This document shows positions 24,117 to 54,694 of a DNA stretch of 64,000 bases, piece by piece. The stretch's first letter is position 1; every line of letters begins with the position of its first letter. This DNA comes from Vulcanisaeta souniana JCM 11219 (GTDB lineage Archaea; Thermoproteota; Thermoprotei; Thermoproteales; Thermocladiaceae): contig NZ_AP026830.1 in the NCBI RefSeq assembly GCF_026000775.1, positions 372,001 through 436,000 of the forward strand, read 5' to 3'. The translations under genes and the position numbers were made by a program. Below the pieces are notes generated by a model, which made no database searches, was not told the origin of the DNA, and worked only from the letters and a program-made list of their open reading frames with translations.

Positions 24117-24215
24117 GGGCCGGTAGTCTAGCCTGGAAGGATGCCCGCTTGGCATGCGGGAGATCCCGGTCGCGGGTCAACCGCGGGGAAAGTTCAAGTC
24201 CCGGCCGGTCCACCA
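24117..24215 (+). tRNA. tRNA-Ala(GGC) with an intron in the T arm
   Basis: Acceptor GGGCCGG pairs with CCGGTCC, including the G3-U70 wobble that identifies alanine tRNAs. The anticodon stem CCCGC/GCGGG closes a normal 7-nt loop, TTGGCAT, with anticodon GGC. The T arm reads CCGG, then 22 extra bases, then G-TTCAAGT-CCCGG, so the arm is only completed after splicing. Position 73 is A and CCA is encoded (24213-24215). Confidence 0.9.
24170..24191 (+). other. Non-canonical tRNA intron
   Basis: 22 nt inside the 5' strand of the T stem, after the fourth stem base. It contains its own hairpin (CGCGG/CCGCG around GTCAA), consistent with the bulge-helix-bulge substrate of the archaeal splicing endonuclease. 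Confidence 0.75.
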
Positions 24216-51726: not shown

Positions 51727-52305
51727 ATGTCGAGTAAGTTAACGAAGACTGAGGAGTTGGCGGCCAAGTTGTATTTCAACGAGGGCCTAAAGCCGAAGGA
51801 GATAGCACAGAAGCTTGGTATTTCCGTGAACACTGTTTATAAGGCAATATCTAAGTATAGGGCATTCGTGAAGAACCTAGATCAACCACTACCACAGTCG
51901 GGCAACGAACAGCCAAGTAATGATTCATTGCAATTGACTGATAATAATTATAGCCTAAATGCTTATAGTGTATTCAACGTTAAACTTTCTATAATAACCA
52001 ATTCGCCATTGCCAGTTATCAGTAATAGCGAGCCTAATGATACCATTGACAAGAGTGAGGTGGTTAAGGAACTAAGGGGGCTTAGGGAGTTACTCGGCAA
52101 GCTTATTGCTAAAGTCGAGGAGCTTGAAAAAAGAGGCAGTTGTGTGCCTAGTACTGGGAGTAATCATGAGAAGGAGGATGATTATTCATATAACGAGCCA
52201 ATAAACAGTACTGCGCAGAATAATTACTTACTGCCTGATTTTATCCGTGATAACCCATGGGTTGACGTAATAAAGTCAATCCACAGTACAGCAGAGTCCT
52301 CATGA
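51727..52305 (+). CDS. HTH protein with a C-terminal coiled coil
   Basis: 192 residues. An N-terminal helix-turn-helix of the sigma-like type (TKTEELAAKLYFNEGLKPKE, IAQKLGISVNTVYKAISKYR) covers residues 5-50. A polar linker rich in Asn, Ser and Pro follows, then a helix likely to form a coiled coil (VVKELRGLRELLGKLIAKVE, about residues 118-140) and a disordered tail. DNA binding is expected but the target is unknown. The membrane AAA-like protein gene begins 73 bp downstream on the same strand. Confidence 0.75.
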   Translation: MSSKLTKTEELAAKLYFNEGLKPKEIAQKLGISVNTVYKAISKYRAFVKNLDQPLPQSGNEQPSNDSLQLTDNNYSLNAYSVFNVKLSIITNSPLPVISNSEPNDTIDKSEVVKELRGLRELLGKLIAKVEELEKRGSCVPSTGSNHEKEDDYSYNEPINSTAQNNYLLPDFIRDNPWVDVIKSIHSTAESS

Positions 52306-52378: not shown

Positions 52379-54694
52379 GTGGAGCAGAACGCGATAACAA
52401 ATGCATTTTACACGGCTATGGACGCAATTGCTGCGGTAACGCTGTATGTTGTTTTTCCCATAGTGCCGGTGTATGTTTTCGTGGTGCTCCTGACAATGGT
52501 ATTAGCGTCTTCAATACTTAATAAATATGGACTTTCTACAGCAATCATAATAACGTATGTCATTTTCATTTTCATAACAACACTGAATCACGCTTCACTA
52601 ATAATAATGCCGTTACTGTTACTTACCTACTTAGTGACTGAGGCTGGTGTTGTTAATGACATAGCCGTAATATCATGGTCCCTACTCTTCACGCCCATCT
52701 ACTGGCTATCCATACCATTATCCATGCTACCCTCAGCCAAGGGATACGGTATAAGATCCACAGTAATCTTCTCCCTTCTCACATTGCTATACGCAGTGGC
52801 CTACGCATATATGGGTATTGAGTGGGTACCAGTAACTATGCTACACGTGAACAACCTAGACTTGGTTAAGGGTATTTTATTAATGCTCTCTGGTGGTTAC
52901 GGTTACCTAACCACGACTTATGGCGAGCTGAGTAATGCATCATTGTACTTCCTCCTTGTGATAGTTGTGGTAATTCCCCCATTATTGAGTAGGTACTTGG
53001 CGAGGTTCATAACCTTCCTAAACCTGAATGTGTATGTTAACTATGCAATAATGAACTTAATGCCATTACTGGTAACAACAGCCCTTCTCTATGTCCCACT
53101 TGCCATTAATGTGGGGAGTTACGAAGCAACCCCATTGCTATTGCTAGGTTCGTTAATTGCAGGTTCATTGGGTTACGCCTTTGATTATTTAAGGCGTATT
53201 ATGGAGATCACGCTTCCAAGGGTAATGACAGCTAGAAGGAAGGCCCCAACCATAATACCAATAACTGATCCATTGGTGATCATGGAGTATAATCAATGGG
53301 CCAAGAAGTTACCCAGCGATGACTCAAGCTTAGTGAGTAATGCAATAAACACGGTATCAAAGACAGGGTTACTAGTTCTTCAGTCCTCACTACCGCAAGA
53401 TAAGATGGAACTAATTAGTAAGGTTTTATTTGGGTATGCAAGGGCCAAGGGGTTCATAATTAAGGGCGATGTTAATTACATACCAAGTGACGTGGATTGG
53501 TTCGTGAGAACGCATGAAAAATCCCTATTGGTATTCATGCCCAATAACTTGAACAAGAAATTAGTTCCGAAATTAATGGAGTATATTAAACAGTCAAGGG
53601 CTAACATAATACTGATAAACATTGACGATTCACTATTCAGTAAATTAAGGAAGTATGGCATTGAAGTAATAACTCACAGCGCCGTGAAGGTAGGAGAGGA
53701 GAAGCAGTCTCAGGTTAATAATGCGTCAGTAGGGTCTACTGAGCAGCCGAGGCCTGTTATGCCCAATCTAGCCGTTAATACCAGCCCCGCAGGTACAAGT
53801 GCCGGTGAGGATATTAAGGCCAGGGATAAGTCAGAGCAAGCTATCGGTAAGGAAATCATGGTTAATAATAGCATTACTACCAAGAGTACTGAGGAGAGTA
53901 AGCCAGTGACGGATCTAGGCGGGAAGGAAGGGTCAGTCATTAAATTGAATAATGAGCGTGCAGAGGAGGAAAGAAAAAGGAAAATGGAGAAGGGTAATGA
54001 AAACAAGCGTGAGGTTGCTAAGGCCCAGTCCAAGGGGAAGCCCGTAACTAATGTTACACTTACTCTTGATCCTGTTGACCTAATAAACATGAGCATTAAG
54101 TCTAAGCTAATTGATTACATAGATTCATCAATTAGGCTAAGAGACATGCTAAGCAATCTTGGGCTTAAGTACGTGTCATCAATATTAATAATAGGGCCGC
54201 CGAAATCGGGGAAGACGGCTTTGATAAACCACGTAGCCAAACACCTAGGTATTCAAGTCATTGATTATAAGGATCCAAGTATCTCCGTACTTGATAATGC
54301 CATTATCCACGTACCAAGTCTCGAGAAGGCATTTAGTGAGGACAGTAATCATATACGCAGGTTAATGAGTATTGCCAAGGCTAAGCATTTTGTGGTTGTT
54401 ATTGAGAGTAGTAATCCCTGGTCAATAGATGCTGATTTCATTAAGGGTAATGTGGATGCCATAGTGCCTATATTACCTATTGACGAGGATTACATAGACA
54501 CGATTACTCAAGAGAAACTAAAGGTAAGCATGAAGGATAGGGAAGTAATCAGGGGTATAATTAAGTCATGCCCGGCAGTTGAGGCTATTGAGAAGGTGAA
54601 GCTTTACCTGTCAGGTAGGGATGGTTCTGATGTGGTATGCGAAGACATGTTTAGGAAGTTCCAGGAATTTGCACGTTCGCTATCACTTAAATAA
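52379..54694 (+). CDS. Membrane-anchored protein with two AAA-like modules, unknown function
   Basis: 771 residues. Residues 1 to about 275 hold eight or nine membrane helices. Residues about 300-440 form an alpha/beta module (LLVLQSSLPQDKMELISKVL, EKSLLVFMPNNLN, ANIILINIDDSLF) laid out like an AAA core but with no P-loop. A charged, low-complexity linker runs from about 445 to 560. Residues about 565-765 form a second module with an intact Walker A, ILIIGPPKSGKTALINHVAK near 605, but the expected Walker B position (DNAIIHVPSLEKAF) lacks the acidic pair. I recognise no family. It could be a membrane scaffold or a degenerate ATPase. Confidence 0.75.
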   Translation: MEQNAITNAFYTAMDAIAAVTLYVVFPIVPVYVFVVLLTMVLASSILNKYGLSTAIIITYVIFIFITTLNHASLIIMPLLLLTYLVTEAGVVNDIAVISWSLLFTPIYWLSIPLSMLPSAKGYGIRSTVIFSLLTLLYAVAYAYMGIEWVPVTMLHVNNLDLVKGILLMLSGGYGYLTTTYGELSNASLYFLLVIVVVIPPLLSRYLARFITFLNLNVYVNYAIMNLMPLLVTTALLYVPLAINVGSYEATPLLLLGSLIAGSLGYAFDYLRRIMEITLPRVMTARRKAPTIIPITDPLVIMEYNQWAKKLPSDDSSLVSNAINTVSKTGLLVLQSSLPQDKMELISKVLFGYARAKGFIIKGDVNYIPSDVDWFVRTHEKSLLVFMPNNLNKKLVPKLMEYIKQSRANIILINIDDSLFSKLRKYGIEVITHSAVKVGEEKQSQVNNASVGSTEQPRPVMPNLAVNTSPAGTSAGEDIKARDKSEQAIGKEIMVNNSITTKSTEESKPVTDLGGKEGSVIKLNNERAEEERKRKMEKGNENKREVAKAQSKGKPVTNVTLTLDPVDLINMSIKSKLIDYIDSSIRLRDMLSNLGLKYVSSILIIGPPKSGKTALINHVAKHLGIQVIDYKDPSISVLDNAIIHVPSLEKAFSEDSNHIRRLMSIAKAKHFVVVIESSNPWSIDADFIKGNVDAIVPILPIDEDYIDTITQEKLKVSMKDREVIRGIIKSCPAVEAIEKVKLYLSGRDGSDVVCEDMFRKFQEFARSLSLK

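Follow-up and report, generated by a model that had tools for sequence, protein, structure and literature searches.

The window analysed here, a stretch of 64,000 nucleotides from Vulcanisaeta souniana JCM 11219, encodes a fast-changing membrane protein, protein X, which we take to be a novel and extreme form of membrane tandem AAA protein. The reading that we favour, and consider somewhat better than an even bet, is that protein X is a catalytically dead, lineage-specific membrane tandem AAA derivative, possibly a partner of an active relative in the same genome (MBA), and that the tail of the neighbouring HTH protein binds crenactin. Protein X would then illustrate clearly how a membrane tandem AAA motor can decay, within one genus, into a protein that is conserved but no longer catalytic. 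Of the two proteins, the HTH protein is the more interesting and the most valuable lead: motif identity, coevolution and co-occurrence make it a candidate DNA-crenactin adaptor.

Architecture of protein X

A preliminary description of this DNA had named a long reading frame for protein X and, upstream of it, one for an HTH/coiled-coil protein, and both are present as described (Table 1). The start methionine of X is the same in orthologues across the genus. Much of the proposed domain layout also held. Hydropathy gave seven to nine membrane segments where eight or nine helices had been counted, the alpha/beta module placed around residues 300-440 was located at 291-436 (module 1) and has no P-loop, and the long charged linker that follows it is predicted to be disordered. 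The full-length AlphaFold2 model had low overall confidence. In it, the membrane region was folded into helices at low confidence, the linker was disordered, and both modules reached values of ~72-84.

Table 1. Coordinates of the features discussed, in the window unless a genome position is given
Feature	Position	Strand	Basis or remark
HTH protein, 192 aa: HTH, coiled coil and arcadin-2-type C-terminal tail	51727..52305	+	
HTH domain (sigma70 region 4-like / HTH_23), residues 4-48	51736..51870	+	Pfam profiles
C-terminal tail of the HTH protein, LLPDFIRDNPWVDVIKSI, residues 168-185, arcadin-2-type motif	52228..52281	+	
Protein X ORF, 771 aa, GTG start	52379..54694	+	ORF, orthologues, models
X membrane region, residues ~9-270, 7-9 hydrophobic segments	52403..53188	+	Hydropathy
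X module 1, residues 291-436, alpha/beta core, no P-loop, no lid	53249..53686	+	AAA-like by predicted fold only
X linker, residues 437-555, charged, predicted disordered	53687..54043	+	pLDDT 22-38; dN/dS 0.3-0.5
X module 2, residues 556-771, AAA core and C-terminal helical lid, nearest to MBA D2	54044..54691	+	Pfam AAA; profile comparison; model
Walker A GPPKSGKT, residues 606-613 of X	54194..54217	+	Kept in orthologues
Walker B position AIIHVPSL, residues 641-648 of X, no D/E	54299..54322	+	Orthologue and MBA comparison
Degenerate sensor 1 and next turn, FVVVIESSNPWSID, residues 671-684 of X	54389..54430	+	Compared with VIVIAATNRPWxxD in MBA
MBA, membrane-anchored tandem AAA protein, same genome as X	G000:C1:1601626-1604265		

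Module 2 is an AAA domain that has lost its catalytic residues

Module 2 is a true AAA domain. The Pfam AAA profile (PF00004) matched residues 602-675 of X with 23.9 bits against a cut-off of 21.2, the model contains both the core and the lid helices, and the Foldseek matches were AAA structures. This module had been described as having a perfect Walker A and no clear Walker B, which agrees with what we found. It contains a P-loop of the GxxGxGK[ST] type, of which G606, P607, S610, G611, K612 and T613 were invariant in the orthologue alignment. No Walker B acid (hhhhDE) was found in the module: X reads AIIHVPSLE where MBA reads AIIFIDEID, and H644, V645 and P646 are conserved in the orthologues that cover this position. 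At sensor 1 the orthologues vary (ESSN, ESSD or ECDD vs ATNR), with ATNRPW of MBA D2 appearing as ESSNPW in X. The arginine fingers are absent from module 2 as well, LLRPGRFDK of MBA being replaced by IK-GNVDA. The loss of Walker B, sensor 1 and arginine fingers extended to all X orthologues covering those sites.

Since Walker A is kept while the residues for hydrolysis are gone, X is most likely a nucleotide-binding, non-catalytic protein. Going by these motifs, we infer that module 2 still binds ATP or ADP and does not hydrolyse it; the bound nucleotide may serve X as a structural or sensing element. Could module 2 still be an active ATPase, with an unusual acid such as D632 or D639 in place of Walker B? 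D632, P633 and D639 are indeed invariant and lie downstream of Walker A, in a YxDPSI..D segment. Position alone, however, is no proof of metal coordination, and sensor 1 and the arginine fingers have been lost too, which leaves an active module 2 very unlikely.

MBA is an active-looking relative in the same genome

A search of the source genome recovered a membrane-anchored tandem AAA protein, for which we use the label MBA. Crenarchaeal membrane-bound AAA proteins were reportedly treated by Serek-Heuberger et al. in 2009. MBA has six to eight N-terminal membrane segments followed by two AAA domains, D1 and D2, in both of which Walker A, Walker B, sensor 1 and the arginine fingers are intact; no NCBIfam model matched it above cut-off. 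All genomes of the genus gave MBA, some of them as fragments only; in the rest of the class its occurrence is patchy. X is restricted to genomes that have MBA, and the two genes lie far apart in the genome.

The best match of module 2 was MBA D2, which by sequence comparison appears to be its nearest relative. Aligned with hhalign, the two gave a probability of 98.9 and an E-value of 1.2e-17, against 2.5e-12 for MBA D1 and about 6e-12 (6.1e-12) and 4e-11 for D2 and D1 of CDC48, respectively. With an HMM of module 2, MBA D2 domains from the genus reached 40-45 bits, the best-scoring CDC48 domain 28.8. The best tree joined X to MBA D2 with support of 88/74, a placement with D1 or D2 of CDC48 not being rejected (p-AU 0.23). 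X has the same layout as the MBA family, namely N-terminal membrane helices, D1 and D2; only the homology to D2 is detectable, and hhalign found no sequence similarity to MBA for module 1 or for the membrane region.

Matches to related tandem AAA proteins were also obtained in other families of the phylum. One member of the MBA family (L202:693-3203, genome G070) has a D2 that keeps Walker A, reads LIIEEF with no Walker B acids and has no arginine fingers; as far as its sequence tells, this D2 is an independent degenerate case. Two genomes of another family (L203 and L204 in G051 and G045, family f4) encode MBA-like membrane proteins with a single AAA domain, D1. These degenerate forms elsewhere suggest that catalytic loss on this architecture recurs.

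Module 1 resembles an AAA core in its predicted fold

Modelled alone, module 1 reached a pLDDT of 85 and a pTM of 0.81, with the element order b-a-b-a-b-a-b-a-b, as in the AAA core. Searched with Foldseek, this model retrieved almost only AAA+ and other P-loop NTPases, the top matches being nearly all AAA+ (RuvB, ORC, Lon, Rpt, FtsHi and Cdc48); each match was weak (E above 1e-3, TM up to 0.52). At the position of the P-loop, X has LLVLQSSLPQDKME, which is not a P-loop. No sequence similarity of module 1 to module 2, MBA or CDC48 domains was detected with hhalign. An AAA-like core that has no P-loop is thus supported for module 1 by the model, on structural grounds only. Isolated Pfam hints (TIR and Cro) fell under the cut-off and were set aside. 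We likewise took as chance the weak matches of module 1 in ORFs of ~300 aa, which were 35-50 residues long; the ORFs, read at four loci, look by sequence like P-loop ATPases of the Mrp/ApbC type.

Two further observations concern the protein as a whole. Foldseek aligned p97/Cdc48 with the full-length X model over ~600 columns spanning both modules, and in this alignment module 1 would fall on D1. Moreover, the first strands of the two cores are ~270 residues apart, similar to the spacing of the P-loops in MBA and CDC48. Module 1 may be pictured as a descendant of D1.

The preliminary description had explained the two modules as a duplicated unit, one copy dead and the other still binding nucleotide, and had proposed fold prediction and comparison of both. 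Both modules did retrieve AAA structures, those of module 1 being individually weak, and their elements do run in parallel, the two AlphaFold2 models having the same strand and helix order. Descent from a tandem AAA architecture, with one copy dead and the other binding nucleotide but probably not hydrolysing it, is therefore plausible. What did not stand was the duplication within the gene. The two modules have no sequence similarity to each other, with an hhalign probability below 1%, so we rejected an internal duplication as being without sequence support. An inherited tandem of D1 and D2 fits X better.

The same data bear on whether X was ever a tandem protein at all. It might instead be a chimera of a lineage-specific membrane protein, an unrelated Rossmann-like module 1 and a captured single AAA domain. 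In such a chimera one would expect what the searches gave, namely no likeness in sequence between MBA or any AAA domain and either module 1 or the membrane region, and also the missing lid and P-loop of module 1. Nevertheless, the Foldseek search of module 1 yielded AAA+/P-loop NTPases and not dehydrogenase or flavodoxin folds, and X shares its domain order with MBA and its core spacing with MBA and CDC48. We regard a chimeric origin as unlikely.

Under our preferred reading of X as a tandem AAA derivative, the ancestor would have been a membrane-anchored tandem AAA protein, whose order of membrane region, first module and second module X retains. In the D1-like module the P-loop and lid would have disappeared; in the D2-like module only Walker A would remain, with Walker B, sensor 1 and the arginine fingers gone. 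The resulting protein could be a scaffold in the membrane, or it could accompany or regulate an active motor, most likely MBA, without catalysis of its own.

Protein X is confined to one genus and is maintained by selection

Each of the 12 genomes of the genus contains protein X. Seven copies are intact and full-length, three are split by frameshifts, and two are cut by contig ends, one near its end and one after ~25 codons (G001, in which only these first ~25 codons are present). X was found in none of the other 69 genomes of the class, and searches of 300 phylum genomes, of viral contigs and of the GTDB contig collection gave no X beyond the genus either. The wider search for X also returned one CDC48 match, which was discarded as matching by Walker A only. 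X is therefore confined to one genus. Its dN/dS was ~0.11-0.24 in the two modules vs 0.3-0.5 in the linker, so that both modules are under purifying selection and the linker is less so. The selection on both modules indicates that X is a maintained protein and not a decaying pseudogene.

The HTH gene ends 73 bases upstream of X. The two genes are adjacent and co-directional in the members of the genus whose contig is unbroken here, except in G010, where hemC comes directly after the HTH gene and X lies on another contig. The HTH protein occurs class-wide without X and in varied gene neighbourhoods. The expectation that the HTH gene would always sit upstream of X thus failed on two counts, the class-wide occurrence without X and the separate contigs of the pair in G010. 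This distribution led us to reject a dedicated HTH-X module: the pairing is the neighbourhood of one genus and not a conserved module.

Elsewhere in these neighbourhoods, G011 (L071) has an extra ORF of 467 aa between X and hemC, ~3.7-5.1 kb after the start of the HTH gene. The only tRNA found in the window is a tRNA-Ala(GGC) at 24117-24215; at 99 bases it is longer than usual and possibly contains an intron.

If the adjacency and shared direction of the two genes in the genus reflected a joint function, X and the HTH protein could form a membrane-DNA regulatory pair, in which nucleotide-bound X controls or anchors the HTH protein. This is quite unlikely in our view: outside this genus the HTH protein always occurs without X, G010 has hemC in the place of X, and crenactin is a better candidate partner for the conserved tail of the HTH protein. 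The DNA-membrane system of the preliminary description likewise lost support, as the HTH protein is not a dedicated partner of X and its tail points to DNA-actin coupling instead.

The HTH protein carries an arcadin-2-type tail

The N-terminal domain of the HTH protein matched HTH_23 with 30.6 bits (cut-off 24.6) and Sigma70_r4_2 with 28.9 bits (cut-off 25.7). Its C-terminus is LLPDFIRDNPWVDVIKS, and the tail is kept in 39 of 40 homologues, the sole exception being a frameshifted copy. It shares with arcadin-2 the motif [LV]P[DSE][FY][LIV]x[DN]N[PV]W[VIL]x[VI][LI]xx[RK]. Arcadin-2 of Pyrobaculum calidifontis binds the hydrophobic groove of crenactin with its final 17 residues (R187-R203), which were crystallised as a peptide; full arcadin-2 binds crenactin with a Kd of 31 nM, the tryptophan is central, and the site on crenactin is the one that ParR uses on ParM (PMC5173319). 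Consistent with that peptide, the 203-residue protein encoded directly downstream of crenactin in genome G027 ends in RGGIGENEWVKILRSKR. In the HTH protein the groove-binding peptide is present as a sequence motif only, and the protein did not match the NCBIfam arcadin-2 model (NF053561). Its gene lies at another place in the genome than crenactin.

A second protein of the source genome that matches the C-terminal half of the HTH protein does adjoin crenactin (G000:C1:810702-812009). It matched the NCBIfam arcadin-2 model over its length with 34.9 bits, against a cut-off of 290, and its homologue in G024 reached 51.8 bits. In a family-mate, G012, the arcadin-2-like gene (L273/L294, G012:C1:1073940-1074563) lies apart from crenactin (916766-918073). 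At L206:475-1533, two genes shortly upstream of arcadin-1 and crenactin encode a 165-aa roadblock-like protein and a small Ras-like GTPase of 186 aa, both so labelled by reading their sequences.

An arcadin-2-type tail on an HTH protein suggests that DNA is coupled to actin rather than to the membrane. Crenactin is the most likely binding partner of the tail, and the HTH protein is thereby a candidate adaptor between DNA and actin-like filaments.

Association of the tail with crenactin

We examined the tail motif as a loose DNA pattern in the 2.43-Mb source genome. It gave 13 matches; of the seven loci read, only two lay at ORF C-termini, those of the HTH protein and arcadin-2. Across 19 genera, the identity between HTH tail and arcadin-2 tail was 0.478 within the own genus and 0.409 with others (p = 1e-4, genus-level permutation), with phylogenetic autocorrelation among neighbouring families as a caveat. 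Of the 81 genomes of the class, 70 gave crenactin and 64 the HTH protein (68 with weaker matches); in the five genomes of families f6 and f8 neither was found. Four genomes have the HTH protein without detected crenactin and six the reverse; most of these are incomplete.

Against the 300 phylum genomes, matches of the HTH-family profile to the full HTH form were limited to the class. Proteins from elsewhere in the phylum matched by their C-terminal half only; of the eight such loci read, six adjoin crenactin, and one of the remaining two is at the end of a contig. Through its tail half, the profile thus retrieves arcadin-2 loci across the phylum.

Seven further proteins of 123-159 aa (L340, L341, L342, L343, L344, L345 and L346, in G016, G046, G045, G048 and G260) all end in an arcadin-2-type tail. 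By sequence reading, their N-termini vary and several resemble DNA-binding domains, being RHH-like in L340/L341, zinc-finger-like in L342/L346 and AbrB-like in L343/L344. Together they constitute a possible family of crenactin adaptors.

The tail might also bind something else, so that the motif held in common with arcadin-2 would reflect another partner of both proteins. Three of the four genomes with the HTH protein and no detected crenactin (G078, G070 and G075) keep an intact tail, which is neutral or mildly against a link to crenactin; these genomes, however, are only 57-90% complete. In arcadin-2, this tail is the peptide whose binding to crenactin is known from crystals (PMC5173319), the HTH protein and crenactin are jointly missing in f6 and f8, and tail-bearing proteins outside the class sit beside crenactin. 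To another shared partner we consequently give only a small chance.

For the wider proposal we put the chances at about even: the HTH protein would be a class-wide, ParR-like DNA-crenactin adaptor, one of a tail-sharing set with varied N-termini, crenactin would act on DNA (in segregation or nucleoid positioning), and X may have joined in Vulcanisaeta. If true, this would provide a concrete, testable link between archaeal actin and DNA. Reviews hold that crenactin is likely division machinery of the Thermoproteales, direct evidence being absent (PMC7617429, PMC10936438). Within an incomplete coverage of the literature, we found no paper linking crenactin with DNA-binding proteins of this kind.

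Comparison with known systems

Protein X shares with CDC48/p97 two AAA modules ~270 residues apart and the two-domain Foldseek alignments. CDC48 differs in being soluble and active and in having an N domain, whereas X is a degenerate membrane protein whose sequence is nearer to MBA D2. With MBA, X shares the layout of N-terminal membrane helices followed by two AAA modules; the catalytic motifs of MBA are intact, whereas X keeps only the Walker A of module 2 and has a disordered linker where MBA has the lid of D1. In the FtsH12/FtsHi motor of chloroplasts, membrane AAA paralogues that are no longer active are believed to work as members of a heteromeric complex (PMC8042743, PMC8197885). An inactive membrane AAA paralogue beside an active one is also what X and MBA would represent, by analogy only: X has no protease domain, and MBA is a putative partner.

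For the HTH protein, the closest likeness is to arcadin-2 (Rkd2), with which it has a coiled coil and the same C-terminal tail motif in common; it differs in its N-terminal domain, a DNA-binding HTH, and in its gene neighbourhood. A comparison with ParR has been made for arcadin-2 (PMC5173319). The HTH protein would resemble ParR of the bacterial plasmid ParMRC system in binding DNA and in fitting its tail into the hydrophobic groove of an actin-like protein, although it has no sequence relation to ParR and mostly uses an HTH instead of an RHH domain, L340 and L341 being the RHH-like versions.
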